DNA of 48,609 bases from an uncultured Magnetospirillum sp. (lineage in GTDB: Bacteria; Pseudomonadota; Alphaproteobacteria; Rhodospirillales; Magnetospirillaceae): positions 1-48,609 of the forward strand of contig NZ_CAINTR010000150.1 of assembly GCF_903853455.1 (NCBI RefSeq), read 5' to 3'. Shown one piece after another: positions 31,865-46,794 of this stretch. How positions within the stretch are numbered: position 1 is the first letter of the stretch; every line of letters begins with the position of its first letter. The position numbers were made by a program, and so were the translations under genes. The notes under the pieces were generated by a model. That model did no database searches and was not told the DNA's origin. It was given only the letters and a program-made list of their open reading frames with translations.

Positions 31865-34546
31865 TTGACCACGCCTACTGCGTCGCCGCAATTCGATATC
31901 ACTCCGGTTACCATCGAAGACGAGATGAAGCGCTCTTATCTCGATTACGCCATGAGCGTGATCGTGAGCCGTGCGCTCCCCGACGTCCGCGATGGTCTGA
32001 AGCCGGTTCATCGCCGCATCCTCTTCGCCATGAAAGAGGCCGGCTACGACTATAACAAGCCGTTCCGAAAATCGGCCCGCATCGTCGGCGACGTCATGGG
32101 TAAGTATCACCCCCATGGCGATTCCTCGATCTACGACGCCATGGTGCGCATGGCGCAAAACTTCTCCATGCGCCTGATGCTGATCGACGGCCAGGGCAAT
32201 TTCGGCTCCATGGACGGCGACCCGCCGGCAGCCATGCGTTATACCGAGGCGCGGCTGGCCCGCTCGGGCCACGCGCTGATCGAGGACATCGACAAGGACA
32301 CCGTCGATTTCCAGGCCAACTACGACGAATCGACCTATGAACCGGTCGTCCTGCCGGCGCGCTTTCCCAATCTGTTGGTCAATGGCGCCGGCGGCATCGC
32401 CGTCGGCATGGCCACCAACATCCCGCCCCATAATCTGGGCGAGGTGATCGACGCCTGCTGCGCTTATATCGACGATCCCGAGGTGACGCCCGAGCGTCTG
32501 ATGGAACTGGTGCCCGGCCCGGACTTCCCCACCGGCGGCACCATTCTCGGCCGCTCCGGCATCCGCGCTGCCCAACTGACCGGGCGCGGCTCGGTGGTGA
32601 TGCGCGGCCGCGTCCATATCGAGGAGATCCGCAAGGACCGCGAAGCCATCGTGGTCACCGAGATTCCCTATCAGGTCAACAAGGCGCGCATGCTCGAGCA
32701 GATCGCCGAGTTGGTGCGCGACAAGAAGATCGAGGGCATCTCCGACCTGCGCGACGAGTCTGATCGCGACGGTGTGCGGGTGGTGGTCGAGGTCAAACGT
32801 GACGCCATCGCCGACGTGGTGCTGGCGCAGCTCTACAAGTTCACGCCGCTGCAGACCAGCTTCGGCGTCAACAGCCTGGCGCTCAACGGCGGCCGGCCGA
32901 TGATGATGACCCTGCGGGACATCATCAAAGCCTTCATCGCCTTCCGCGAGGAGGTGATCACCCGCCGGACCATCTTCGAACTGGGCAAGGCCCGCGACCG
33001 CGCCCATATCCTGGCCGGCTTGGCCATCGCCGTGGCCAATATCGACGAGGTCATCCGGCTGATCCGCGCCGCTCCCGATCCCGTCACCGCCCGCGAGCAG
33101 TTGATGGGGCGCGAATGGCCGGTGGGCGACGTGGGACCGCTGATCCAGTTGATCGACGAGCCGGGGCGCGGCATCACCGATGGCAAGTATTCGCTGTCGG
33201 AGCTTCAGGCCAAGGCCATCCTTGATCTGCGTCTGCACCGCCTGACCGGGCTGGAGCGCGACAAGATCGGCGACGAACTGCGCGAAATCGGCCGCCAGAT
33301 CGAGGAATATCTGGAGATCCTGTCGTCGCGTCCGCGCCTGTTCGAGGTGATGCGGGCCGAGCTGCTGGAAATCCGCGAGCAATTCGCCACCCCTCGGCGC
33401 ACCACCATCGAGGAAAACGAGTTCGAAGCCGATATCGAGGATCTGATCGCCCGCGAGGACATGGTGGTGACGGTGACCAACACCGGCTACATCAAGCGGG
33501 TGCCGCTGTCGGCCTATCGCGCCCAGAAGCGGGGCGGCAAGGGCCGGTCCGGCATGAACATCAAGCAAGAGGATTTCCTCAACCAGGTGTTCGTGGCCAA
33601 CACCCATACGCCGGTGTTGTTCTTCTCGTCCTCGGGCATCGCCTACAAGCTGAAGGTCTACCGCCTGCCGCTGGGCAATCCCCAGGCGCGGGGCAAGGCC
33701 ATGGTCAACATCCTGCCGCTGGACGAGGGCGAGAGCATTTCCACCGTGATGCCGTTGCCCGAGGATGAAGGCAGTTGGGGCAACCTGCACGTGGTGTTCA
33801 CCACCTCGAACGGCGACGTGCGGCGCAACCTGCTGTCCGACTTCACCGAGGTGCGGGCCAACGGCAAGATCGCCATGAAGCTGGGCGAGGGCGAACGCCT
33901 GATCGCGGTTCAGACCTGTTCCGAGGCCGACGACATGTTGCTGGCCACCCGCCTGGGCAAGGCCATCCGTTTCCCGGTGCCCGACGTTCGCGTGTTCAAG
34001 GGCCGCGACTCCACCGGTGTGCGCGGCATCCGGTTGGAAGATGGCGACGAGGTCATCTCCATGTCCATCGTTCGGCATGTGACTTTCGACAGCGAGACCC
34101 GTGACTCCTATCTGCGCGGCGACTTGCCGACGGATCAGTCGGAGAAGATGGCCGGCGAGGAGCAGTATGTGCTGACCGTGACCGAAAACGGCTTCGGCAA
34201 GCGGACCTCGGCCTACGAGTACCGCATCACCGGCCGTGGCGGTCAGGGCATCGCCAATATCGACATGACCGACAAGACCGGTCCGGTGGTGGCGTCGTTC
34301 CCGGTGGACCACGAAGACGACATCATGCTGGTGAGCGACGGCGGCAAGCTGATCCGCATGCCGGTGGACGACATCCGTATCGTCGGCCGGCGGACCCAGG
34401 GCGTGACGCTGCTGCGCACCGCCGAGGGCGAGCGGGTGGTGTCGGCGGCGCGGTTGTGCGACATCGCCGGTTCGGGCGATGACGTTGACGAGGGTGACGA
34501 GGATTCGGACGGCACCGATGCCATGGCGGGAGGAGAGGATGTCTAA
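31865..34546 (+). CDS. gyrA: DNA gyrase subunit A
   Basis: Breaks and rejoins DNA in the negative supercoiling reaction. 893 residues from a TTG start at 31865 ([15 protein letters not shown]) behind GGGAAGAT; ATG 31925 would remove part of the conserved N-terminus. The catalytic tyrosine is Tyr126 in AMRYTEARL. The quinolone-resistance region reads [13 protein letters not shown], with Ser87 and Asp91 (E. coli Ser83 and Asp87), i.e. the susceptible form. The C-terminal wheel has the GyrA-box-type QKRGGKG. The acidic tail is rich in Asp/Glu. Its stop overlaps the coaD start by 8 bases. Confidence 0.97.
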
Positions 34547-35039
34547 GCGGGTCGGCCTTTATCCCGGGACGTTCGATCCCGTGACCAATGGTCATCTCGA
34601 CATCGTTTCCCGCGCCGCGCGGCTGGTGGACCACCTGATCGTGGCGGTGGCGGTCAACGCGGGGAAGGGGCCTTTGTTCACCCTGGAAGAGCGGGTGGCC
34701 ATGGCCGAGGCCGAGACGGCGGTCATTTCGGCCTCGCTTGGCGTCAGCATCGAGGTTCGGCCGTTCGAGACCCTGCTGGTGAACTTTTCCAAGGATTGCG
34801 GCGCCAACCTGATCGTGCGCGGGCTTCGCGCCGTCTCCGACTTCGAGTACGAGTTCCAGATGGCCGGCATGAATGCCAGGATATCGCCCGATATCGAAAC
34901 CATGTTTCTGATGGCGTCCGAGCGCAGCCAGTTCATTTCCTCGCGCTTCGTCAAGGAAATCGGGCGCTTGGGCGGAGACATCTCCCAGTTCGTCAGCCCT
35001 CGGGTCAAGACGATGCTGGACGAAAAATTTGGCTTCTAA
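34539..35039 (+). CDS. coaD: phosphopantetheine adenylyltransferase
   Basis: Penultimate step of coenzyme A synthesis: 4'-phosphopantetheine + ATP to dephospho-CoA. Nucleotidyltransferase motif [12 protein letters not shown] at the N-terminus, [26 protein letters not shown] and [11 protein letters not shown]. 166 residues, typical. ATG 34539 has AGGAGAGG just upstream and lies inside the end of gyrA, so translation is coupled. Confidence 0.96.
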
Positions 35040-35068
35040 TAAGCCGATCAAGGACAATGGAGGACCAC

Positions 35069-35545
35069 GTGGACGCCGAGAACACTCTTTACCTGGACCT
35101 CAAGGATGGCCGCGTGGTGATCGAACTGCGCCCCGACCTTGCTCCCAATCATGTTGCCCGAATCAAGGAACTGGTGCGCGAGAAGTACTACGACGGACTT
35201 AAGTTCCATCGGGTGATCGATGGTTTCATGGCCCAGACCGGCTGCCCCACGGGGACCGGAACCGGTGGCTCGGGCACCAAGCTCAAGGCTGAGTTCTCCA
35301 AGGAGAAGCATGTGCGCGGCACCTGTTCCATGGCCCGTGCCGCCAGCCCCGACAGCGCCGATTCGCAATTCTTCATCATGTTCGACGAATCTTCTCATCT
35401 CGATGGCAAGTACTCCATCTGGGGCAAGGTCATCGAAGGCATGGAGCATGTGGACGCCATCAAGCGCGGCGCGTCCGGCTCCGGCTCCGTCAGCTCGCCC
35501 GATTCCATCATCAGCCTGCGTGTCGCGGCGGATTGCAAGGACTGA
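35069..35545 (+). CDS. cytosolic cyclophilin-type peptidyl-prolyl isomerase
   Basis: Prolyl isomerase of about 158 residues. The cyclophilin core has FHRVIDGFMAQTGCPTGTGTGG, AEF and DSADSQFFIMF, with the catalytic arginine in FHRVI. No signal peptide. I place the start at GTG 35069 (MDAENTLYLDL) because GGAGG lies 5 bases upstream; ATG 35057 has only a poorly spaced AAGGA. It lies 29 bases after coaD and 6 bases before a paralogue with a signal peptide. The gap-GSG-SGS stretch near the C-terminus is low in complexity. Confidence 0.93.
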   Translation: MDAENTLYLDLKDGRVVIELRPDLAPNHVARIKELVREKYYDGLKFHRVIDGFMAQTGCPTGTGTGGSGTKLKAEFSKEKHVRGTCSMARAASPDSADSQFFIMFDESSHLDGKYSIWGKVIEGMEHVDAIKRGASGSGSVSSPDSIISLRVAADCKD

Positions 35546-35551
35546 CATCAC

Positions 35552-36109
<558 letters not shown>

Positions 36110-36128
36110 CCATTTCCCTCCGTTGACG

Positions 36129-36161
36129 AAGGGCGCTCACCTGCCTATGGTGAGCGCCCTT
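36129..36161 (+). terminator. terminator after the cyclophilin pair
   Basis: AAGGGCGCTCACC (36129-36141) pairs with GGTGAGCGCCCTT (36149-36161), a 13-bp stem with a 7-base loop and TT after it. It ends the coaD-cyclophilin transcription unit and lies just before tRNA-Lys. Confidence 0.75.
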
Positions 36162-36167
36162 TCGAGA

Positions 36168-36243
36168 GGGCCCGTAGCTCAGTTGGTAGAGCAAGCGACT
36201 TTTAATCGAGAGGTCCCGGGTTCGAGTCCCGGCGGGCCCACCA
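36168..36243 (+). tRNA. tRNA-Lys (TTT)
   Basis: A 76-base tRNA with encoded CCA. Acceptor stem GGGCCCG/CGGGCCC, D-arm GCTC-AGTTGGTA-GAGC, anticodon loop CTTTTAA with anticodon TTT at 36201-36203, T-arm CCGGG-TTCGAGT-CCCGG and discriminator A. The anticodon stem is unusual: AGCGA opposite TCGAG gives A-G and G-A contacts at pairs 27-43 and 28-42, leaving three standard pairs. Reads lysine AAA/AAG. Confidence 0.95.
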
Positions 36244-36260
36244 AAACTCGAAACGAAAAC

Positions 36261-36289
36261 AAGGGGTTGATCGGATCGGTCAGCCCCTT
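36261..36289 (+). terminator. terminator after tRNA-Lys
   Basis: AAGGGGTTGA (36261-36270) pairs with TCAGCCCCTT (36280-36289) with one G-T wobble, followed by TTTCTTT. Typical Rho-independent form. Confidence 0.8.
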
Positions 36290-36370
36290 TTTCTTTGCCC
36301 GCGCGGCGGTGAAATATTTCATCGTGGCTTGCCGTGAGAACGGCTTCAGCAGTCAGTGAGAGTCCTCTCA

Positions 36371-36396
36371 TGGGCGGTGGTTCGCGCCACCGCTCA
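36371..36396. repeat. hairpin in intergenic region after tRNA-Lys
   Basis: TGGGCGGTGG (36371-36380) pairs with CCACCGCTCA (36387-36396), 10 bp including one G-T wobble. Lies between the tRNA terminator and the promoter at 36432-36460; no T run. Confidence 0.4.
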
Positions 36397-36431
36397 CCCG
36401 ACTCGGATTCCAGTCGCGGGGTTGGTGTTGC

Positions 36432-36460
36432 TTGCATCCCTAGGCCGTAAGTAATATAAT
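36432..36460 (+). promoter_or_regulatory. possible promoter with perfect TATAAT
   Basis: TTGCAT (36432-36437) and TATAAT (36455-36460) are 17 bases apart. The -10 is perfect, rare in this GC-rich DNA. It would transcribe the small Cys-rich frame at 36512. Confidence 0.45.
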
Positions 36461-36511
36461 CTCCCTTGATGGCGTATGCCATAAGGATTAGTTGCAAGAG
36501 GAGCGGCCGCG

Positions 36512-36715
36512 ATGGGAATCGTCATATCAGGAACTTGCGGAGCTTGTGTTCACTATCTCGACGGGGGATGCCGGCGGGCCAGTTCACGTTTTTGCGGGCG
36601 CCCGGTATGGTCGCTTGCCTGCCTTGACTGTACGGGCTACCAGCGAAGCGCGATGGCGGCGACGCCCACTGACCCGAGCGCATTTTCCGCAGTGAGACAG
36701 AGCCCCCATCTTTAG
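36512..36715 (+). CDS. possible small cysteine-rich protein
   Basis: A 67-residue frame starting at ATG 36512 with GAGGAG about 9 bases upstream and a good promoter at 36432-36460. The first 40 residues have six cysteines (9, 12, 20, 28, 37, 40), forming CGAC-type and CLDC pairs, a likely zinc or Fe-S site. The tail after residue 45 is low-complexity and without features. No family recognised. The cysteine pattern with its own promoter and ribosome site makes it more than a random frame. If not a gene, 36244-36776 holds only the terminator and hairpins listed. Confidence 0.45.
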   Translation: MGIVISGTCGACVHYLDGGCRRASSRFCGRPVWSLACLDCTGYQRSAMAATPTDPSAFSAVRQSPHL

Positions 36716-36723
36716 GGTGACCA

Positions 36724-36760
36724 TAAAAAAAACCTCCCCGCCACTCGGGCGGGGAGGTTT
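36724..36760 (-). terminator. terminator of the cold-shock gene
   Basis: AAACCTCCCCGCC (36730-36742) and GGCGGGGAGGTTT (36748-36760) form a 13-bp stem; on the minus strand it is followed by a run of T (A run at 36724-36732). It ends the cspA-type transcript. Confidence 0.85.
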
Positions 36761-36776
36761 CATAGCGGCAAGATTC

Positions 36777-36986
36777 TTAGAGAACCTTGATATTGACCGC
36801 AGAGGTCTTACCCTTCTTCGGGTCGCGCTCTTCGTCGAACGACACCTTCTGGCCGTCGTTGAGGCCGCTGAGGCCGGCACGCTCGACGGCAGAGATGTGC
36901 ACAAAGACGTCCGGACCACCGTTATCGGGGGCGATGAAGCCGTAACCCTTGGTGGAATTGAACCATTTAACAGAACCGTTAGCCAT
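36777..36986 (-). CDS. cspA: cold-shock protein (CspA family)
   Basis: A 69-residue RNA-binding chaperone with one cold-shock domain. RNP-1 KGYGFIAPD and RNP-2 VFVHISA are intact, and the [12 protein letters not shown] start is typical. ATG at 36984-36986 with GGAG about 8 bases upstream. The 5' region on the minus strand holds a hairpin (37039-37056) that may be part of a long leader, as is common for cold-shock genes. CspA-type regulation by temperature is not shown by the sequence itself. Confidence 0.96.
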
Positions 36987-37038
36987 TTAGAGTCTCCAAC
37001 AAACTTACGCGCCTATCTTTAGACGGCAACGCTTTGCT

Positions 37039-37056
37039 GAGCAAGCGTCCTTGCTC
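37039..37056 (-). promoter_or_regulatory. hairpin in the presumed cold-shock mRNA leader
   Basis: GAGCAAG (37039-37045) and CTTGCTC (37050-37056) make a perfect 7-bp stem with a 4-base loop, about 53 bases upstream of the cold-shock start codon. It may be a leader structure affecting mRNA stability or translation. Confidence 0.35.
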
Positions 37057-37146
37057 GAATTTGTCGCCGGAAGTTATTTAATGCGGATTTGCCTGGAATC
37101 TTTCGCCGGCCTATGATCAGACGATATAGGCATTATTGGCGGGATA

Positions 37147-37872
37147 ATGGGCGAGACGGCGGGGAAGATGGTGTCCGGTGACGATCTTGCGGTCTGGCGC
37201 GACAGTGTCGGCGAATACGCAGGTCACACGCAGGACCTCTATGCCAATTGCGTCAGTGCCTATCATGCCTTCGACGGTTTGCCGCGCCTGGTCGATGGGC
37301 TGCGCCTGCTGTCGGTCAATGCCGGGCTGGTCTCGGCACGGGCCGGCGATTACGGCCGTTCCATCCGAGTTCTGACCAACTTCGCCACCGAATCGGTCAC
37401 GCGTTTGCGCGACGTCATCCCGCAGATGCTGTCGTTGAAGCGCGAGACCTATGAAACCGTCGGCAGTGTGATGCGGTCGATCAATGATATCGGCAAGCTT
37501 GAGGCGGCGGGGACCATCATCATGCGGGGGCAAGGAGGCCAGGCGGCATCGCTTGGCGCCGTCTCCGGCGCGTGGCGGGCGCGGGTCAGGACGCTTTCGG
37601 CTGCCGCGTCCCGGCTCAGCACCGCCAACGACCATCTGGTCGCTGCGGTCCGCGTGGCTCGCGAGGTCATGCTTCAGGTCGAGTTGATCGCCGCCAACAT
37701 CGCCATCGAGGCCACCACCGCCGGTCCGTGGGAGGCCGAGTTGACCGCCATCGCCGAGACCATTCGCGCCAAGTCCGTGGAACTGCGGGCGATGGTCGAC
37801 GACGCGGGGCGCAATCTTCGCAACGCTACCGAAACCATCGTCGCCCTGGTTGGGGTCGGCTCGCGGACATAG
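37147..37872 (+). CDS. soluble protein with two chemoreceptor-like hairpin-tip segments
   Basis: A 241-residue protein without membrane segments, signal peptide or HAMP domain, and almost wholly helical by composition. Two segments resemble the kinase-contacting tip of chemoreceptors: residues 55-78 (SVNAGLVSARAGDYGRSIRV) and residues 181-207 (IAANIAIEATTAG followed by ELTAIAETIR). Compare the usual NAAIEAARAGExGRGFAVVA. The methylation helices of a full receptor are not evident. ATG 37147; ATG 37168 is an alternative. An ODP-type gene starts 16 bases after its stop, so the two are probably one operon. It may be a cytosolic receptor or adaptor that couples the ODP partner to CheA/CheW; this is inference. 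Confidence 0.65.
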   Translation: MGETAGKMVSGDDLAVWRDSVGEYAGHTQDLYANCVSAYHAFDGLPRLVDGLRLLSVNAGLVSARAGDYGRSIRVLTNFATESVTRLRDVIPQMLSLKRETYETVGSVMRSINDIGKLEAAGTIIMRGQGGQAASLGAVSGAWRARVRTLSAAASRLSTANDHLVAAVRVAREVMLQVELIAANIAIEATTAGPWEAELTAIAETIRAKSVELRAMVDDAGRNLRNATETIVALVGVGSRT

Positions 37873-37887
37873 TGGGAGGACGGGCAA

Positions 37888-38661
37888 TTGAAGTGTACCG
37901 AGCTTTGGGTCCAAGGAGATCATCGCTGGCTGGCCTTTGCCGATGATCCCACCAAGCCGGACAATGTCATCGACACCAACCAATTCGTGGTGACCTCCGA
38001 CGCGGGGTGCATGCTGATCGATCCCGGCGGGGTCGAATTGTTTCCGGCCATGGTGGCGGCGGTGACCCAAGAGGTGCCGATCGAGCGCATCCTGCATCTG
38101 TTTTTGAGCCATCAGGACCCGGATGTATCCTCGGCGCTGCCGCTGTGGCGGCAAGTCTGCCCGACCGATCTGGTCACCCATGTGTCGTGGATGTGGACAG
38201 GCTTCGTCAGCCACTTTGACCGCGAGGCGGTGTTCGATCCGCTGCCGGACATGGGAAGCGACATTCACCTGTCTCAGGATGTGCGGCTGAAGGCGCTGCC
38301 GGCCCATTACCTCCACTCGTCGGGAAATTTCTGCGTCTACGATGCCAAGGCCAAGGTGCTGTTTTCCGGCGATATCGGCGCCGCGCTGGTTCCGCGCGAC
38401 AAGCGGCCGACCATTTTCGTCGAGGATTTCGCCAGCCATGTTCCATACATGGAGGCGTTCCACCGCCGCTGGATGGGGTCGCCGGCGGCGCGCGACAAAT
38501 GGATCGCCATGGTGCGGCGGCTGAAGATCGACATCCTGGCGCCGCAGCACGGCCTGTTGTTCCGTGGCCCGGATGTGGAACGCTTCCTGGACTGGCTTGC
38601 CGCGCTGCCGCTGGGCAGCGGTCTCGACGCTTTCGACCAGGCGATGGCCAAGCTCGATTGA
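37888..38661 (+). CDS. flavodiiron/ODP-type metallo-beta-lactamase-fold protein
   Basis: A 257-residue stand-alone beta-lactamase-fold di-iron domain like that of flavodiiron proteins, without the flavodoxin domain. Candidate metal ligands are His75, Asp77 and Asp79 (LSHQDPDV), His143 (LHSSGNF), Asp162 (FSGDIG) and His221 (PQHGLLF). The canonical HxExDH reads HxDxDV here, so one histidine is replaced by Val80 and the glutamate by Asp77. Start is TTG 37888, 16 bases after the MCP-like gene, with GGGAGGA upstream. Oxygen-binding di-iron proteins (ODP) of this type act as O2/Fe sensors with chemoreceptors in Treponema; the neighbour supports a similar role. A hydrolase or NO/O2 reductase role is the alternative. 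Confidence 0.8.
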   Translation: MKCTELWVQGDHRWLAFADDPTKPDNVIDTNQFVVTSDAGCMLIDPGGVELFPAMVAAVTQEVPIERILHLFLSHQDPDVSSALPLWRQVCPTDLVTHVSWMWTGFVSHFDREAVFDPLPDMGSDIHLSQDVRLKALPAHYLHSSGNFCVYDAKAKVLFSGDIGAALVPRDKRPTIFVEDFASHVPYMEAFHRRWMGSPAARDKWIAMVRRLKIDILAPQHGLLFRGPDVERFLDWLAALPLGSGLDAFDQAMAKLD

Positions 38662-38684
38662 CAAGCGGCTCCGCCGACCGCACT

Positions 38685-38701
38685 GTCAACGTCATGTTGA
38701 C
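38685..38701. promoter_or_regulatory. palindrome, possible operator
   Basis: GTCAAC (38685-38690) and GTTGAC (38696-38701) flank a 5-base centre in the short gap between the ODP-type gene and the HTH gene, 9 bases before the latter's ATG. It may be an operator for the downstream HTH protein, or chance. Confidence 0.35.
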
Positions 38702-38710
38702 GGGGGTGGC

Positions 38711-39664
38711 ATGGATCTGTTCGAACAGCTGACCGAGGGGCGAGAGGACAAGGCGCTGGACCGGCTGGAAGCCATGCTGGCGCTGTTCGAGGCCGACAGC
38801 GAGATCGAGCAGGATCTGGCGCTGGAACGCGTGATGGCCTATTGCGAGCGGGAATGGGGGGGCTATGCCGCCGGCCTGGACGCTCTGGCCCATCGCATCG
38901 AGAGCCGCTCCGAGGATTCGGTCGATGCCGCCATGCAGTCGCTGCGGCTTCGGCAAGAGGGCGCCGAACCGGGGGCCATCATCCAATCCATTCGGCACCG
39001 GCGTTTCCGCGAACGCGGCCGCCTCGGTGAGCGCGAAGCGGTGATCGCCCTCTATGGAAGCGAGGATGCCGCCATGGCTCCCACCGCTTTCGAAGCGATC
39101 TTCATCGCCGCAACCGCTCTTCTGGCGGAGGAGGGCGCGCCGGATGATCCGTTCGGGCCGCTGTGCGGCTGGCAATTGGCCTGGCACGACCTGCCTGACG
39201 CGCTTCGCCTCGCTGTATCGGCGGCCTATCCTTTGCCGGCGACGGTTGCCACCGCCCGCGATGAATGCCTGAAATGGGAAGAACGCCTGCACCATCTGGA
39301 ACTGGTGTTCGACTGTGCCGGGGCCGGGGCGCTGCCCACCGCCTGCGCCGCCAGACGCCGAGTGGTCGAGGAGCTTTGGCGCAAGGGACTGAAGGCTGCC
39401 AGTCTCGACGACTTTGCCGCCCGGCTTGGCTATTGGGCCAGCCGGGGAGGGGATGACGGTGCCGGCTATGGCATCCTGATCGCGGATTTGGAAAGCGTTT
39501 CGGCCGGCCTGACCGCCCGTGCGCCCACGGAAAGCACCAAGGACAGGGCGCGCCGGCTGAAAGCCGACCATCCCGAATGGTCATTGGCCAAGATCGGCAA
39601 GGCGCTTGGTATCTCACGTCAAGCGGTCCATAAGCACCTCAAGGGGTTCTCGCCATCGGTATGA
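38711..39664 (+). CDS. hypothetical protein with C-terminal helix-turn-helix
   Basis: A 317-residue protein starting at ATG 38711 behind CGGGGGTGG. The first 250 residues are helical and acidic (MDLFEQLTEGREDKAL; several Leu-rich helices) and I do not recognise a family. Residues from about 275 contain a short helix-turn-helix with SLAKIGKALGISRQAVHKHL, as in bacterial DNA-binding regulators. No membrane segment. It lies 49 bases after the ODP-type gene and is probably transcribed with it. A palindrome precedes it, so autoregulation is possible. Confidence 0.7.
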   Translation: MDLFEQLTEGREDKALDRLEAMLALFEADSEIEQDLALERVMAYCEREWGGYAAGLDALAHRIESRSEDSVDAAMQSLRLRQEGAEPGAIIQSIRHRRFRERGRLGEREAVIALYGSEDAAMAPTAFEAIFIAATALLAEEGAPDDPFGPLCGWQLAWHDLPDALRLAVSAAYPLPATVATARDECLKWEERLHHLELVFDCAGAGALPTACAARRRVVEELWRKGLKAASLDDFAARLGYWASRGGDDGAGYGILIADLESVSAGLTARAPTESTKDRARRLKADHPEWSLAKIGKALGISRQAVHKHLKGFSPSV

Positions 39665-39757
39665 TGGGAGTGATGAATTGGTATGACCGATTGGCGAGCG
39701 CGGATTTGGCCTGTATGGTTGTCGGGTGGGATCTCTTTTACCAAAGCAGGTTCGATC

Positions 39758-40351
39758 ATGCCTCGCATCGCCAGCCTTGTCGCCGCAATCGGGTTCGTCT
39801 TTTTGGCCTTGCCCGCCAACGCCCAGCTCATGGACATCCTCAGCGCCCCCAAGACGTTGATCGAGCGGGCGGCGGAGGCCCGGTCGGTCTCGGATATCGC
39901 CAAGGACAACGCCATCGTGGTCAAGGTCAATGGCGCCATGGCCAAGCACACCACCATCAAAGCGTCCACCGAGATCTACGAGCAGCGGCTGCTGGTGACC
40001 GGACTGTTCGACGACAAGGCCGCCTATGACGCCTTCCAGAAGGATGTGAAGGCCGTGGGCGGGGTCAAGAAGCTGTATTGGCAGGTGACCTATCTGGCCG
40101 AAAACGATCCCCAGCGGAAGACCCTGCCCAGCTGGGGCGACACGCTGGCCATGGCCACCAAGGCCCAGGTCCGCCTGACCAAGGCCGTGGCCGGCAAATA
40201 CGTCAATTTCCGGGTTACCGGCGATTCCTACGGCAATCTCTTCGTCATCGGCCGTGCCCACACCAAGGAAGAGGCCCGCAGCGTCGTCACCGCCCTCAAG
40301 GACGGCAACGGTGTCAAGAAGGTGGTCAGCTACATCGATGTCAGGCCATAG
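39758..40351 (+). CDS. exported BON-like domain protein
   Basis: A 197-residue protein with a signal peptide of about 22 residues (ending ANA-QL). The mature part looks like two BON-type segments: one with VKVNGAMAKHTTIKASTEIYEQRLLVTG-type pattern near residues 50-110 and one with NFRVTGDSYGNLFVIGRAHT and KVVSYIDVRP at the C-terminus. BON domains bind phospholipids or stabilise the outer envelope, so a periplasmic role is likely. ATG 39758; the frame upstream to 39683 is not needed. It is 4 bases before the next small gene. Confidence 0.8.
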   Translation: MPRIASLVAAIGFVFLALPANAQLMDILSAPKTLIERAAEARSVSDIAKDNAIVVKVNGAMAKHTTIKASTEIYEQRLLVTGLFDDKAAYDAFQKDVKAVGGVKKLYWQVTYLAENDPQRKTLPSWGDTLAMATKAQVRLTKAVAGKYVNFRVTGDSYGNLFVIGRAHTKEEARSVVTALKDGNGVKKVVSYIDVRP

Positions 40352-40355
40352 GACC

Positions 40356-40565
40356 ATGGCCTTGCGTCTGCCGCGTCACGTCATCGGAGCGATCAGCGTC
40401 GCCGTCGGCTTCGTCGGCGGCATCGCCCTGTTGCTGATCCTGCCACAGAAATTCGGCGTCTCGCCGAAACTGACCGGGTTCATCGCCCTCGGGGTATGGA
40501 TTGCCTCCACCTGGGTGTTCTGGACCGGCGGGAAAGAGCCGCCTTCCCCGAAGCAGGACGGTTGA
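40356..40565 (+). CDS. small membrane protein
   Basis: A 69-residue protein with two hydrophobic segments (about residues 10-30 and 38-56; AISVAVGFVGGIALLLILP and FIALGVWIASTWVFW) and a short polar tail. ATG 40356, 4 bases after the BON-like gene; the frame is open further upstream (ATG 40338). I do not recognise a family. It lies between the BON-like gene and the EamA transporter, with 5 bases before the latter's start. Confidence 0.65.
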   Translation: MALRLPRHVIGAISVAVGFVGGIALLLILPQKFGVSPKLTGFIALGVWIASTWVFWTGGKEPPSPKQDG

Positions 40566-40570
40566 CCGCC

Positions 40571-41515
40571 ATGCGTCACCACGCCTGGACCACCGCCATG
40601 CCGGGAGTCTTCGTCCTGCTGTGGAGCACCGGCTTCATCGGCGCCAAGTTCGGACTGCCCTACGCCGAGCCCTTCACCTTCCTGGCGTTGCGCTTCATCG
40701 TTGTCATCGCCCTGCTGACGGTGGTGGTTTTGGCCAGCAAGGCGGTCTGGCCGCGCAATCCTCGCCTGATCGCTCATCTGGCCGTCTCGGGTATCCTGGT
40801 GCACGCCATTTATCTGGGGGGAGTGTTCGGAGCCATTCGGCACGGCGTTCCGGCCGGGCTGGTGGCGCTGGTGGCCGGCTTGCAGCCGCTGTTGACAGCC
40901 GCGGTGGTGGGCCCCTTGCTGGGCGAGCGGGTCGGGGGCAGGCAATGGCTCGGCCTTGGTCTCGGCCTGATCGGCGTCGCCATGGTGTTGTCCACCCGGT
41001 TGACGGGGGTTCGTTTCGACGGCTTTGGTTGGGATGGGATGAGTTTTGCCGTGGCGGCACTGCTGGCCATCACCGGCGGCACCCTTTACCAGAAACGTTT
41101 TTGTACCGGAATGGACTTGCGGACGGGCACTTTGGTGCAGTATCTGGCCGCCCTGGCGGTTTCCTTGCCGGTGGCCATGGCGTTCGAGACCATGGAGATT
41201 CGCTGGACGCTTCCATTCGTCCTGGCGCTAGGGTGGCTGGTGCTGGTGCTCTCACTGGGCGCGATCAGCCTGTTGATGACGCTGATTCGCCTGGGGGAGG
41301 CCGCCAAGGTCGCCAGTTTCTTCTATCTGGTGCCGCCGGTGACGGCGGTGCTGGCCTTTGCCCTGTTCGGCGAAGCGTTGACCCCGTTGGCCCTGGCCGG
41401 CATGGCGGCGACGGCGGTGGGGGTGGCGCTGGTGGTTCAAAGGCCTAGCGTTCGCTCATGTGATTCAGCAGCCGCCGCAGGAAGGTCTCGCACTGGGCGA
41501 CCTGCTCCAGGGTGA
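40571..41515 (+). CDS. EamA/DMT-family transporter
   Basis: Ten predicted membrane segments in two EamA repeats, 314 residues, typical of the drug/metabolite transporter superfamily (RhaT/YdcZ-like efflux or uptake of small metabolites). Start MRHHAWTTAMPGVFVLLWSTGFIGAKFG at ATG 40571, in repeat 1, and GEALTPLALAGMAATAVGVALV in repeat 2. The substrate cannot be inferred. The last 70 bases overlap the end of argE on the opposite strand, and the last 25 residues are basic and unlike the family, so the true functional end may be near residue 292. Confidence 0.85.
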   Translation: MRHHAWTTAMPGVFVLLWSTGFIGAKFGLPYAEPFTFLALRFIVVIALLTVVVLASKAVWPRNPRLIAHLAVSGILVHAIYLGGVFGAIRHGVPAGLVALVAGLQPLLTAAVVGPLLGERVGGRQWLGLGLGLIGVAMVLSTRLTGVRFDGFGWDGMSFAVAALLAITGGTLYQKRFCTGMDLRTGTLVQYLAALAVSLPVAMAFETMEIRWTLPFVLALGWLVLVLSLGAISLLMTLIRLGEAAKVASFFYLVPPVTAVLAFALFGEALTPLALAGMAATAVGVALVVQRPSVRSCDSAAAAGRSRTGRPAPG

Positions 41516-42647
41516 TGAACTCATCCGGCTTGTGAGCCTGCATGATGCTGCCGGGGCCGCAGACCACGGCGGGGATTCCGGCTCGCTGGAACAGCCCAGC
41601 CTCGGTGGTGAAGGCGACCTTGGAGGTGTCGTTGTTGCCCGACAGGGCACAGACCAGACGCACAGCCTCGTCGTCCGGGCGCATGTCGAGGCCGGCGGTG
41701 GAATTGTGCTCGTCCAAGGTGATGCCGGCGGCGGAGGAGACCGCCAGCATTTCAGGCACGAGATCCTGAGCCCAGCCGCGCATCTCGGCCATCAGCGTTT
41801 CGGGGTCGTGGCTGGGGAGATTGCGAATCTCGAACTCGAAGCCGCATGACTTGGGAACGATGTTAAGGGCGGTTCCGCCTTGGATGGTTCCGGTGTGAAT
41901 GGTGGTGTAGGGCGGTTGATAGGCGAGATCGAAGGGGCCGTCGTTGCGAATGCGACGTTGCAATCCGCGCAACCGGACCACCAGCTCGGCGGCGATCTCG
42001 ACCGCGTTGACGCCCCGGTCGTTCATGGCCGAATGGCATTCGTGGCCTTCGACGTGGCAGCGGACGCTTTTTTTGCCCTTATGGCCGATCACCGCCTTCA
42101 TTTCCGTGGGCTCGCCGACGATGCAAAGGCGCGGCGCGACGGGAAGCTGGGCCAGATCGCCGATCAGGCGACGCACGCCGACACAGCCGACCTCCTCGTC
42201 ATAGGAGAAGGCGAAATGAATCGGCATGGCAAGACGCCGTGCGGCGAACTCCGGCGCCAGGGCGAGGCAGACCGCGATGAAGCTCTTCATGTCGGCGGTG
42301 CCGCGGCCGTAGAGCTTTCCGTAGCGCTGGGACAGGGCGAACGGATCACTGCTCCAATCCTGGCCCTCCACCGGCACCACATCGGTGTGGCCGGAAAGAA
42401 CCACCCCGGGACGATCCTCCGGTCCTAATGTAGCGAACATATTCGCTTTTTGACGGTTTTCATCCCAGGTCAAACGGATACTGGCGCCTAGTCCCGATAA
42501 GATGTCGGACGCAGCCTCTATTAACCGCAAATTAGTCTTGTAGCTTGTAGTGTCGAACGCTACTAAACGTTCGATCATGTCGATGCTGGATAATCGTTGC
42601 GCAGCAGGATGTTCGCTCAAGGAAGAACTCTCAGACTTGGATGCCAT
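41445..42647 (-). CDS. argE: acetylornithine deacetylase (M20 family)
   Basis: Zinc deacetylase that releases ornithine from N-acetylornithine in arginine synthesis. The 400-residue protein has the M20 motifs LSGHTDVVPV (His87, Asp89), GRGTADMKSF, SYDEEVGCVG with the catalytic glutamates, and HKGKKSVRC before a dimerisation domain. The C-terminal FTTEAGLFQ and GPGSIMQAHKPDEF give the last metal ligand. Start at the ATG complementary to 42645-42647. The family also includes succinyl-diaminopimelate desuccinylases; the GHTDVVP context and length favour ArgE. Divergent from the secretion operon, with 221 bases between, in which I see no clear promoter. Confidence 0.9.
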   Translation of the reverse strand: MASKSESSSLSEHPAAQRLSSIDMIERLVAFDTTSYKTNLRLIEAASDILSGLGASIRLTWDENRQKANMFATLGPEDRPGVVLSGHTDVVPVEGQDWSSDPFALSQRYGKLYGRGTADMKSFIAVCLALAPEFAARRLAMPIHFAFSYDEEVGCVGVRRLIGDLAQLPVAPRLCIVGEPTEMKAVIGHKGKKSVRCHVEGHECHSAMNDRGVNAVEIAAELVVRLRGLQRRIRNDGPFDLAYQPPYTTIHTGTIQGGTALNIVPKSCGFEFEIRNLPSHDPETLMAEMRGWAQDLVPEMLAVSSAAGITLDEHNSTAGLDMRPDDEAVRLVCALSGNNDTSKVAFTTEAGLFQRAGIPAVVCGPGSIMQAHKPDEFITLEQVAQCETFLRRLLNHMSER

Positions 42648-42868
42648 CGAATGCTCGGGTCGGTGACGCGGGGTGGTCGTGCCGTTTCAGCCTATCATAA
42701 GGCCGGAGGGATGGTCTGCGCCAGGGTATCGCCGATGCCTATGAGCAATCGGCTATGGCTCTCGCCCCGCCATGGCGATATGCTACCGAAGAGTCGTCAT
42801 AGCGGCGGTCAAGGGGTGTCGAGAATAGGGCAGGGAGCGTGGGCCCGACCAGCCTGCGGCACGGCAGA

Positions 42869-44623
42869 ATGAGTGATCCCGGCACGATGAGGGATGCCGG
42901 CGCTGGCTCGCAGGAGAGTGGCCAGAGGGTTAGTATTGCCTCGCTGTCCACCTTGAAGAACAATCTGTTCGATCTGGCCATGGGATCGCTGTTCCTCAAC
43001 GTCCTGGGCCTTGCGCTCCCCATGGCGCTGTTGCAGGTCTACGACCGTATCCTGCCCAACAAGTCGGTCGGCACCATGGTCCTGCTGATGGCTGGCGTGA
43101 TCGGCGCCTTGCTGATCGAGTCGACCCTGAATTTCTGCCGCTCCTATATCACCGGCTGGGTTGGAGCCAAGTTCGAGCACAAGGCCGGCTGCACCGCCTT
43201 GGATCATTTGGTGATGGCCGGGATCGACGATTTCGAGAAGGGAGGGTCCGGCGCCCATCTCGAACGCATGGGCTCATTGGCCACGGTGCGCGAGTTCTAT
43301 GCCGGCCAGGCCATGCTGACGCTGCTCGATCTGCCGTTCGCCATTCTTTATCTCAGTCTGGTGGCGATGATGGGCGGATTGCTGGTCCTGGTCCCCATCG
43401 TGCTGCTGATCGCTTTCGCCATCACCGCCGTCCTGATCGGCACCAAGCTGCGGGGATCGCTGCAAAAGCGCATGGTGGCGGACGACCGCCGGTTCAACTT
43501 CATCATCGAGGTGCTGGGGGGCATCCACAGCGTCAAGGCGTTCTCCATGGAGGCGCAGATGGTGCGCCGGTATGAACGCCTGCAGGAATCCTGCGCCGAA
43601 GGCGCCTATCAAGTGGCGCTGCACAGTTCCTCGGCCATGGGCGTCTCTTCGTTCTTCTCCCAGGCCACCACCATCTGCGTCGCCATGGTCGGAGCCCTGG
43701 TGGTGATGAACGGCGACATGACCACCGGCGGTCTGGCCGCTTGCTCCATGTTGGCCGGCCGCGCCATGAGCCCCTTGCAGAAGGCCCTGGGCGTTTGGAC
43801 CCGCTTCCAATCCTTCATGCTGGCGCGCCATCGCCTCACCGAGTTGTTCTCGCTGAAGCCGGAAGCCCCCAAGGGGCTGCCCAAGCTTGAGAACATCAAG
43901 GGAGCGCTTGAACTGGACGATGTCAGTTTCCGTTACGGCGAGAATCTGCCCTTCGTCATTCACCACGCCTCCATCTCCATCCGCGAGGGCGAGTGCATCG
44001 TTATTTCCGCCGGCAACAGCGCCGGCAAGACCACACTGCTGACCCTGATGCAGGGCGCCTTGCGCCCCACCAGCGGCAGCGTCCTGGTCGATGGTCAGCA
44101 TACTTCCCTGTACGAACCCCAGAGCATTCGCGATCAGATCGCGTTCCTGCCGCAGATGGGCGAGCTGTTCCAGGGCACGATCCTTCAGAACATCACCATG
44201 TTCCGCAAACAGTTCGACGACGTGGCGGTCGAAACCGCCGCGCTGCTGGGACTGGACGAAGTGGTGGCCACCATGGCGTTGGGCTTCGACACCCCGGTGG
44301 GCGACGGGGCCTATGATTCCCTGCCGCGCGGCATCAAGCAGCGTATCGCCATTGCCCGCGCCCTGGTCAACAATCCGCGGATCGTGCTGTTCGACGAGGC
44401 CAATACGGCGGTGGACACCACCGGCGACAACTTCCTGCGGGTGTGGCTCGAGCGCGCCAAGGGAAAGCGGACCCTGGTCCTGGTGACGTCGCGTCCGTCC
44501 CTGGCCAAGCTGGGGGATCGGGTGTTCGAATTGGATCATGGCGTGCTGCGGCTGAAGCCGCCGCGTGAGGATCGGCCCCCGGTTCAGGCTCCCGGCCTTT
44601 TGCCACAGGGAGGGCCGGCATGA
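42869..44623 (+). CDS. type I secretion ABC transporter protein, first of two
   Basis: ABC half-transporter (six membrane segments then an ATPase domain) of 584 residues without an N-terminal peptidase-like domain. Motifs: Walker A AGNSAGKTT, Q-loop FLPQMGELFQG, Walker B IVLFDEAN, but the signature reads LPRGIKQRIAIARAL rather than LSGGQ, and the switch histidine is replaced by Ser (VTSRPSL). ATG 42869 is chosen; GTG 42839 is in frame upstream. Its stop overlaps the next gene start (ATGA 44620-44623). A substrate gene is not in the window. Confidence 0.85.
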   Translation: MSDPGTMRDAGAGSQESGQRVSIASLSTLKNNLFDLAMGSLFLNVLGLALPMALLQVYDRILPNKSVGTMVLLMAGVIGALLIESTLNFCRSYITGWVGAKFEHKAGCTALDHLVMAGIDDFEKGGSGAHLERMGSLATVREFYAGQAMLTLLDLPFAILYLSLVAMMGGLLVLVPIVLLIAFAITAVLIGTKLRGSLQKRMVADDRRFNFIIEVLGGIHSVKAFSMEAQMVRRYERLQESCAEGAYQVALHSSSAMGVSSFFSQATTICVAMVGALVVMNGDMTTGGLAACSMLAGRAMSPLQKALGVWTRFQSFMLARHRLTELFSLKPEAPKGLPKLENIKGALELDDVSFRYGENLPFVIHHASISIREGECIVISAGNSAGKTTLLTLMQGALRPTSGSVLVDGQHTSLYEPQSIRDQIAFLPQMGELFQGTILQNITMFRKQFDDVAVETAALLGLDEVVATMALGFDTPVGDGAYDSLPRGIKQRIAIARALVNNPRIVLFDEANTAVDTTGDNFLRVWLERAKGKRTLVLVTSRPSLAKLGDRVFELDHGVLRLKPPREDRPPVQAPGLLPQGGPA

Positions 44624-46794
44624 ACTCCATGCTCACCTCCTCGGGCATGCCGCCGAAGCCGAATCAAAAGGCGATCGAGCAGTACGAACAGCAATTGGCG
44701 CAAAATGCGCTGGGCGGGTTCTCGGCGGCGTCGGATCTTGCCGCCTGCCTGCTGCCATTGCTGAAATCCCTGGGATGGAAGGGCGACCCCCGCCACGTGG
44801 CGGAATCGTTGCCGCATTTCGCCAACGATCTCGACCTCACCGGCCTGCGCAACGTGCTGGCGACGCTGAACTATTCGAGCCGTCCCGAGAAGCTGCTGCT
44901 CGAAACCATCGACCCCCGTCTGCTGCCCTGCCTGTTCCTGCCTGACGGCCAGCCGGCCATGGTGGTGAAGGCGGTTGGCGAGGAAGGCGACGCCGACGTC
45001 TTCGACAGCTCGGAAGGCGCCAGCCGGTCCCTGGATATTCGCGGTCTCAAGGGAACCGCCTACTTCTTCACCAATCAGTCCGATGCCGCGGCGGCACGGC
45101 CGGTCAACTGGTTCAAGAGCGTGCTGGAGCGGTTCCGGCCGTTGTACTGGCAGGCGTTCTTTGTGACCCTGGTCCTCAACGTGTTCTCGCTGTCGACGCC
45201 GCTGTTCGTGATGGCGGTTTACGACAAGGTGATCGGCGCCTCCTCGCATTCCATGCTGCTGGCCCTGTCCATCGGCGTGACCCTGGCCCTGGCCGCCGAT
45301 GCGGTGCTGCGAGAGGTGCGCGCCCGGGTGCTGGCCTTCGTCGGCGCCCGTCTCGACAACATCATGGGCAACAACATCTTCCAGCATATCCTGGCCCTGC
45401 CGCCGGGCTTCACCGAACGCGCCACCATCGGCGCCCAGGTGGCCCGCATCAAGGACTTCGAATCCGTTCGCGAGTTCTTTACCGGTCCGCTGGCCACGGT
45501 GTTCATGGAACTGCCGTTCGCCCTGTTCTATTTCGCCGTCATCGCCATGCTGGGCGGCATCATCGCCATCGTCCCCATGATCGCCACGGCGCTGTTCATG
45601 ATCGGCGGCTATCTGGTGATGCCGATCGTGCGCAAGAATGTGAGCATCGCCTCGCGCGCCGGTTCGCGGCGGCAGGAATTCCTGGTGGAGGCGCTCGGTA
45701 AGATGCGAGCGGTCAAGCTGGCCTCGGCGGAGCACACCTGGGTCAAGCGTTACCGGGAAATGTCGGCCAGGGCCGCCTATGGCGGCTTCAAGAACGGCCT
45801 GTTCGCCGCCGGCATCGCCACCTTGTCCAATATCTTGATCATCAGTTCGGGCTTGGCGACCATCTGCGTCGGCGTGTTGGGAGTCATCAGCGGCGATATG
45901 ACCATCGGCGGCCTGATCGCCGCCATGATGCTGGTGTGGCGGGTTCTGTCGCCGCTTCAGACCGGCTTTACCATGATCCAGCGGGTCGAGCAGGTGCGCG
46001 GCTCCATCCGCCAGATCGATGGTTTGATGGCGATCAAGCCCGAGCGCGACCCTCAGGCAATCGTCGCGCCGTTGAAGAACGTAAAGGGCAGGGTGGTGTT
46101 CTCCCGGGTGTCGTTGCGCTACAACAACGAGGCCGATCCGGCGCTGGTCGGCGTCTCGTTCGAGGTCGAGCCGGGGGAAGTGGTCGCGGTCACCGGGCGC
46201 AACGGCTCGGGCAAATCCACCGTCATCAAGCTGTTGCTGGGCCTTTATGCGCCGCAAGCCGGCAACATCAAGATCGACGCCGCCGATATCCGTCAGATCG
46301 ATCCCATCGAGTTGCGGCACATGATTTCCTATGTGCCGCAGGTCTGTAATCTGTTCTTCGGCTCCATCGCCCAGAATCTGCGGTTGGCCAATCCCACCGC
46401 CACCGACGCCGATATCCGCTGGGCCTGCGACCAATCCGATGTCTGGGACGAGATCGCCGCCTTGCCACGTGGCCTCGACACCCGCATCGGCGAGGGCGCG
46501 GCCGATCATCTGCCCACCAGTTTCATTCAGAAACTGTCGTTGGCGCGGGGCTACCTCAAGCGCAGCCCGATCATGTTGTTCGACGAACCGGTCAACGGCC
46601 TGGATTTCGAGGGTGACCGCACCTTCATGCAGGCGGTTGAAACCTTCCGCGGCCAGTCCACCATCTTCATGGTGACCCACCGTCCCAGCCATCTGCGCAT
46701 CGCTGACCGGATTCTTGTGTTCGACGCCGGTTACCTGCGTCTCGCCGGCCCCGCCGAAGAGGTGAGGGCGCGCATACCCCCGGATCTGATATGA
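44620..46794 (+). CDS. type I secretion ABC transporter protein, second, with N-terminal domain
   Basis: ABC half-transporter of 724 residues. An N-terminal domain of about 150 residues (with LLPCLFLPDGQPAMVV and ending GTAYFFTN) resembles the C39-peptidase-like domain of LapB/HlyB-type proteins but shows no catalytic Cys, so it would bind substrates, not cut them. Then six membrane segments and an ATPase with normal Walker A GRNGSGKST, Walker B IMLFDEPV and switch histidine (MVTHRPSHL), but a degenerate signature (LPTSFIQKLSLARGYL). Together with the previous and following genes it makes a type I secretion system. Stop overlaps the adaptor start. Confidence 0.88.
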   Translation: MNSMLTSSGMPPKPNQKAIEQYEQQLAQNALGGFSAASDLAACLLPLLKSLGWKGDPRHVAESLPHFANDLDLTGLRNVLATLNYSSRPEKLLLETIDPRLLPCLFLPDGQPAMVVKAVGEEGDADVFDSSEGASRSLDIRGLKGTAYFFTNQSDAAAARPVNWFKSVLERFRPLYWQAFFVTLVLNVFSLSTPLFVMAVYDKVIGASSHSMLLALSIGVTLALAADAVLREVRARVLAFVGARLDNIMGNNIFQHILALPPGFTERATIGAQVARIKDFESVREFFTGPLATVFMELPFALFYFAVIAMLGGIIAIVPMIATALFMIGGYLVMPIVRKNVSIASRAGSRRQEFLVEALGKMRAVKLASAEHTWVKRYREMSARAAYGGFKNGLFAAGIATLSNILIISSGLATICVGVLGVISGDMTIGGLIAAMMLVWRVLSPLQTGFTMIQRVEQVRGSIRQIDGLMAIKPERDPQAIVAPLKNVKGRVVFSRVSLRYNNEADPALVGVSFEVEPGEVVAVTGRNGSGKSTVIKLLLGLYAPQAGNIKIDAADIRQIDPIELRHMISYVPQVCNLFFGSIAQNLRLANPTATDADIRWACDQSDVWDEIAALPRGLDTRIGEGAADHLPTSFIQKLSLARGYLKRSPIMLFDEPVNGLDFEGDRTFMQAVETFRGQSTIFMVTHRPSHLRIADRILVFDAGYLRLAGPAEEVRARIPPDLI

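Follow-up and report, generated by a model that had tools for sequence, protein, structure and literature searches.

A putative cytoplasmic sensory pair in Magnetospirillum: an oxygen-binding di-iron protein beside a single-chain chemoreceptor-like protein with two reciprocal tips

Identification of the gene pair

A module of two adjacent genes was recognised in a 48,609-nucleotide contig of an uncultured Magnetospirillum sp. (NZ_CAINTR010000150.1), the full length of which is termed the window. The first gene encodes an apparently soluble protein that resembles methyl-accepting chemotaxis proteins (MCPs) and carries two unlike MCP hairpin tips in one chain, and the second encodes a stand-alone oxygen-binding di-iron protein (ODP). 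The two families, their pairing, the predicted fold, the reciprocal conservation of the tips and the linkage of one relative to chemotaxis (che) genes emerged directly from the computation, and the pair probably signals the O2, iron or redox state to a che kinase, the passage from sensor to receptor to kinase being the step that we infer. The layout is as follows, with E385 and R388 given in Tsr numbering.

37147..37872, + strand: gene of the single-chain MCP-like receptor, an open reading frame of 241 residues with an ATG start
Within 37147..37872, + strand: receptor helices at residues 21-40, 45-65, 67-127, 132-189 and 193-240
37297..37404, + strand: hairpin tip 1, residues ~51-86, with N58, R65, G67, D68, G70 and R71 and without an E385 equivalent
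37450..37527, + strand: base end distal to the tips, residues ~102-127 including Y102, a candidate docking end for the ODP
37675..37770, + strand: hairpin tip 2, residues ~177-208, with N184, E188, A189 and G193 and without an R388 equivalent
37873..37887, + strand: gap of 15 bases between the two genes, with AGGA ahead of the TTG start
37888..38661, + strand: gene of the stand-alone ODP, an open reading frame of 257 residues with a TTG start (Pfam ODP; PDB 6qrq/6qnm)

The original prediction had located the pair correctly at 37147..38661 and had counted 16 bases between the genes, one more than there are. A membrane segment is unlikely in either protein, the highest 19-residue Kyte-Doolittle means being 1.39 and 1.48. 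The closest named relatives of the window receptor are those of Paramagnetospirillum marisnigri (72% identity) and P. kuznetsovii (67%).

The assignment of the second protein was given by Pfam ODP (PF19583), matched at E=1e-68 with 231.5 bits against a cut-off of 27.2, and by the solved ODPs 6qrq (E=2e-64) and 6qnm (E=5.8e-57), in agreement with the stand-alone ODP-type di-iron protein that had been predicted. Aligned to these two structures, it displays the ODP pattern HxDxD, H, D, H rather than the HxExD of flavodiiron proteins, and its Pfam matches comprise ODP and Lactamase_B only, with no flavodoxin or rubredoxin among them. Across 34 aligned ODPs, one from the window and the other 33 from related loci, there is no variation at H75, D77, D79 and H140; H143 persists in 33 rows and D162 and H221 in 32, the rows that depart at ligand positions being L102 and L083. 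The residues H75, D77, D79, H140/H143, D162 and H221 are presumably the metal ligands of the protein.

Descent of the receptor from chemoreceptors

Scanned alone, the window receptor matches Pfam MCPsignal in two stretches (E=4.7e-4, 20.5 bits); half 1 by itself reaches E=0.011, and half 2 by itself matches no Pfam family. The halves of four relatives were also scanned separately. Both halves of L067 matched MCPsignal (1.3e-4 and 1.5e-4); in L083, L101 and L106, the stronger half gave values of 1.1e-6 to 1.7e-4 and the weaker half 0.0025 to 0.12. A profile termed A2 was built from 45 of the 53 available receptor proteins (the window and 52 loci), leaving out five presumed, unchecked near copies (L080, L084, L090, L093 and L100), a fused protein (L094), a broken frame (L095) and a partial one (L105). 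Against the PDB, A2 retrieved 13 sequences at E<0.01, every one of them a chemoreceptor or aerotaxis receptor, with a top value of E=1.2e-10. When aligned by hhalign to a profile built on 20 MCPs of the window's own genome, half 1 scored 40.0 and half 2 scored 44.4, compared with maxima of 19.8 and 16.2 in column-shuffled controls (60 per half), and both halves fell onto the MCP hairpin tip. Direct alignment of one half to the other gave no match (score 17.9, probability 3.1%), so the kinship of the two halves is drawn from the alignment of both to one and the same MCP tip. Judged by sequence, the derivation of the first gene from MCPs is firm once its relatives are aligned, and the soluble protein with two segments like the hairpin tip, as originally predicted, is borne out by the PDB matches and the scores above the shuffled controls, with tip similarity reaching both segments when the relatives are included. 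No Pfam or NCBIfam model names the receptor-ODP module as such.

The AlphaFold2 model of the receptor is a single up-down-up-down four-helix bundle (pLDDT 91.9, pTM 0.83) with both tips at the same end. One chain thus seems to reproduce, in the model, what a receptor dimer forms, a natural single-chain pseudo-dimer that goes beyond the original prediction. The hairpin arms measure about 45-60 residues and appear too short for methylation helices. A Foldseek search of the PDB with the model returned nothing at E<=0.001, the HAMP-Tsr fusion 3zx6 appearing at E=0.39, and the 50 VIA rows for the model included no MCP signalling domain; such structure searches compare a single chain with MCP bundles that form from two, and helical bundles obtain middling Z scores by chance.

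Reciprocal conservation of the two tips

The 45 rows of A2 revealed that the two tips are degenerate in opposite ways. In tip 1, N381, R388, G390 and G393 are present in all 45 rows, D/E391 in 38 and E385 in none; in tip 2, N381, E385 and G390 are present in all 45, F396 in 39 and R388 in none. A divergent set termed A3 comprises five rows, of which four represent other classes of the phylum and one is that of G012, a genome of the same family; its tip 1 lacks E385 and keeps R388 in all five. Its tip 2 keeps E385 in all five and has lost R388 in three only. In a 201-residue frame of G770, tip 1 reads NAILLANRAG by eye, with R388 and without E385.

In a modelling study of an archaeal phototaxis transducer, the homologues of Tsr E385 and R388' are described as inter-dimer ionic locks, and those of F396 as stacking (PMC8144572). 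Since each tip of the two-tip protein retains one half of the E385-R388' lock, it is proposed that canonical homotypic trimers of dimers are not possible; a homotypic trimer could not form the canonical lock set, and a place among complete MCPs would be more likely.

Conservation, che linkage and wider occurrence

Synteny was counted over 55 genomes of the family, which hold 50 receptor genes (48 rows at E<=6e-9 and the two divergent rows G011 and G012, weaker rows being excluded) and 49 ODPs above 150 bits. The ODP core lies 100-172 bases downstream on the same strand for 37 of the 50 receptor genes, and 37 of the 49 ODPs have a receptor directly upstream. In a second contig set, whose genomes partly overlap the 55, an ODP follows downstream in 33 of 52 loci, including L095, where it lies behind a broken receptor frame. 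Neither of the findings that would have counted against the original prediction, namely an absence of MCP similarity or of synteny, was obtained. The receptor tree splits into two types (6 rows and 40) with support of 100/100, and receptor distances correlate with ODP distances (r=0.81, 32 pairs). The window's own genome (5.18 Mb in 223 contigs), which has 65 MCPsignal matches, contains a second, paralogous receptor-ODP pair on contig C162.

The che linkage was found in G012, where the receptor-ODP pair comes after genes of CheA (with CheW, HATPase and dimerisation domains), CheR (E=1.2e-61), CheB (1.8e-63) and CheD (1.5e-23), and a histidine-kinase-like frame was seen by eye behind the pair.

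A class-wide search of 385 genomes with profile A1 found matches in 12, namely the window's own, G396 with a near-full-length relative containing an internal stop, and ten with partial matches inside frames of 403-841 residues. In the phylum, ODPs at E<=1e-50 occur in 103 of 398 genomes, and 30 of these loci were inspected together with as much as 1,500 bases of flank. In four of them (L133, L150, L156 and L161), a clear two-tip protein, some 200-230 residues long, lies upstream; a 230-residue candidate upstream in L134 had no MCPsignal match and was left out of the count. The pair is therefore not universal for ODPs, which have other neighbours at most of the 30 loci. Comparison of A3 with A2 yielded a probability of 96.3% (E=2e-9) over 166 columns spanning both tips. 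Searching the 398 genomes with A3 returned as its best six the four A3 members, the window genome's C162 gene and G770:C3, each directly upstream of an ODP; the matches beyond these were partial and mostly in long frames, four of them in frames of 180-250 residues (G648, G458, G704 and G666).

Several side observations were made in the course of this survey. A neighbour resembling the Roadblock/LC7 type by eye stands upstream at 12 of the 30 phylum ODP loci (L137, L140, L144-L147, L149, L152, L153 and L157-L159). A second type of ODP, with a QHYDPD motif and about 290-308 residues, adjoins a gene that looks by eye to be of the GGDEF type (L042 3850-4725/4739-5437; L049 5633-6556/4880-5623), which suggests an ODP input to cyclic di-GMP signalling at these two loci. 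G039 has three ODPs of similar score, one of which was inspected. One relative, recorded as L095 and as G396:C13:19410-20093 (L167), probably the same 20,834-base contig, carries an interrupted two-tip gene next to its ODP. At L038 (679-1110), a hemerythrin-like protein was noted by eye about 3 kb from the second ODP pair of the genome. Five short frames of 164-169 residues in the window's genome (G000 C84:19439, C203:27446, C198:119, C118:6723 and C35:40672) match MCPsignal at about 56-167 only and are possible half-receptor proteins. FNR-type sites gave 18 matches against 11.0 expected, and the sole perfect FNR-like palindrome, TTGATGGCGATCAA, lies at 46024-46037 of the window, distant from the pair.

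Clues to the ligand and the docking site

Globin domains occur in two relatives, beside or in place of the ODP. In L083 (3712-5430), the reading frame of the ODP extends into a Globin domain (E=2e-13) and a Bac_globin domain (2e-18), and two ligand positions of the ODP part are altered, D162 to E and H221 to R. At L094 (2965-4581), Globin (6.3e-15) and Bac_globin (4.5e-8) are joined to the receptor, in a genome where no ODP was found. Such an exchange between gas-binding modules suggests that the ligand is O2 or a similar gas.

At the tip-distal end of the receptor, position 102 is Y or F in all 32 ODP-linked rows of A2 and in one of the 13 unlinked rows, as judged by eye. The tip-to-tip spacing is 120-130 in all 32 linked rows and 91-117 in 12 of the 13 unlinked ones, the same 12 that have no Y/F; the lone unlinked row with Y/F, L092, comes from a genome with an ODP at another place. 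Because the unlinked rows require three changes on the tree, only about two independent losses back this pattern, and docking of the ODP at the base end of the receptor is offered as a lead from sequence comparison. Orphan two-tip receptors with a shortened base end were also recorded in one Magnetospirillum genus group (L033, L034, L036, L037, L072, L075, L077, L078, L087-L089 and L091).

Proposed mechanism and alternative explanations

In the mechanism proposed, the two proteins would together act in the cytoplasm as a sensory input to a chemotaxis kinase. O2 would bind at the di-iron site of the ODP, which may thereby also report on iron and redox conditions, and the state of the ODP would be handed to the neighbouring MCP-like protein by docking at the tip-distal end. 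The two hairpins in one chain would supply the four-helix bundle that an ordinary MCP gets by homodimerising, with both tips at the end where CheA and CheW would bind, so as to control CheA and presumably a tactic output. Of the inter-dimer lock of canonical receptors, the R388 partner would come from tip 1 and the E385 partner from tip 2, giving the chain a fixed orientation, and the receptor would probably join arrays beside complete MCPs instead of building canonical homotypic trimers of dimers. A bolder version, which is put forward tentatively and held to be rather less than an even prospect, is that the ODP of Pseudomonadota has a dedicated, obligately asymmetric single-chain partner; this partner would be a fixed-orientation guest of the array, with one tip turned to the trimer axis and the other to CheW/CheA, so that inner and outer subunit roles are naturally separated, and the O2 sensor would sit at the opposite end; upon loss of the ODP, that end would decay or globin domains would take the ODP's place.

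Several observations weigh against signalling by the pair to a che kinase. The window receptor alone remains under the gathering score of MCPsignal (PF00015), at 20.5 versus 34.6 bits, and is therefore named MCP-like; the divergent members match the family poorly (E=1.6e-4, 0.034 and 0.035 for the three scanned), and the two-tip protein of G012 has no MCPsignal match itself. Tip 2 is weaker in the divergent set, with R at the R388 position in two of the five rows. By eye, no che gene was seen among the open reading frames at 32000-44000 of the window, three of which were profile-searched. Shared descent alone would also yield the correlation of receptor and ODP distances. A tethered AlphaFold2 model of receptor and ODP reached a pTM of only 0.57, with no confident orientation, and no interface is claimed from it. 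Finally, 13 of the 50 receptor genes, all in one genus group (g15), have no adjacent ODP, and 14 of the 19 genomes with ODP-less loci have no ODP above the cut-off, hence the receptor can outlive the ODP. The O2- or Fe-taxis input that the original prediction considered plausible is supported, chemotaxis output by the che-linked relative and an O2-type ligand by the globin fusions; the coupling itself is what we infer, in view of the tethered model and the unpaired genes.

These unpaired genes would be expected if the two-tip protein were an array-structure or adaptor factor with a job of its own, such as capping or spacing receptor arrays, and the ODP an optional regulator. The eight A2 rows of the unpaired clade retain both tips, and five Novispirillaceae loci have no adjacent ODP either; on the other side, the ODP linkage recurs among more divergent relatives and the base-end residues degrade upon ODP loss, and this explanation is judged rather improbable. 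Somewhat less probable still is an O2- or Fe-responsive input with a che-type output other than taxis, for instance flagellum number or development, as with MCP2/Che2 and MCP3/Che3 of Rhodospirillum centenum. In that organism MCP2 affects flagellation and MCP3 encystment (PMC2890560), and its single-chain MCPs are described as having no known role (PMC4692393); no direct evidence was met against such an output. Weak sequence matches of the second protein to flavodiiron proteins would suit an enzyme or an O2/NO scavenger merely co-transcribed with a coiled-coil protein and devoid of signalling, an explanation that appears very unlikely given the absence of a flavodoxin or rubredoxin match in Pfam, the MCP-derived partner and the che-linked relative. 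Signalling by the pair to a che kinase is accordingly preferred as the reading of the module.

This reading has consequences for receptor biology. The roles of conserved tip residues are hard to separate because identical trimer subunits must serve both inner and outer positions, and a single-chain Tsr was built to separate them, as outlined in PMC4692393. A natural family with these roles split by evolution would make the inner/outer question directly testable, and the little-understood natural single-chain receptors would gain a ligand input. For the magnetotactic relatives, whose aerotaxis receptors are reported as many and partly redundant (PMC12442639), the pair adds a putative O2/Fe sensor.

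Comparison with known systems

DosM of Vibrio cholerae has two signalling domains in one receptor chain with the tips at opposite ends, whereas the model of the window receptor has both at one end. The solved soluble receptor 3g67 is a 213-residue chain with one matched stretch, presumably a single hairpin that homodimerises, in contrast with the two unlike tips in one chain of the window receptor. The ODP has reportedly been described by Muok et al. (PNAS, 2019) as an O2/Fe sensor for chemotaxis, the Treponema denticola ODP TDE2498 acting with the cytoplasmic receptor TDE2496, alongside the ODP of Thermotoga maritima. PMC7666581, PMC6978683 and PMC7319448 present the ODP as such a sensor in Treponema; according to the last, ODP genes share operons with MCP genes (in two gene orders) or with other signalling genes, and fused forms occur as well. 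The Treponema and Thermotoga systems share with the window the ODP family and its pairing with a sensor-less, membrane-less MCP-like protein.

A two-protein aerotaxis receptor has been described in a close relative, Magnetospirillum gryphiswaldense, in a study that covered eleven MCP deletion strains and the bipartite CetBA2 (PMC12442639); CetBA2 resembles the pair in having two proteins and differs in consisting of an FAD-PAS sensor and a membrane-linked MCP instead of an ODP and a soluble receptor. A word search of the main text of that paper did not find "ODP". Natural soluble single-chain MCPs are recorded for R. centenum and a small number of microbes, with roles unknown according to PMC4692393, and by description they share with engineered Tsr~Tsr and with the window receptor the possession of two signalling hairpins per chain. 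The halves of wild-type Tsr~Tsr are identical, whereas those of the window receptor are reciprocally degenerate and short and are accompanied by a dedicated sensor gene. No report was found in the literature of an ODP combined with a single-chain receptor or of reciprocal tips, the data sets of Muok 2019 and of Wuichet & Zhulin 2010 being unchecked. ODP-receptor operons and natural single-chain MCPs are thus already in print separately, and what is new is their combination with specialised tips.
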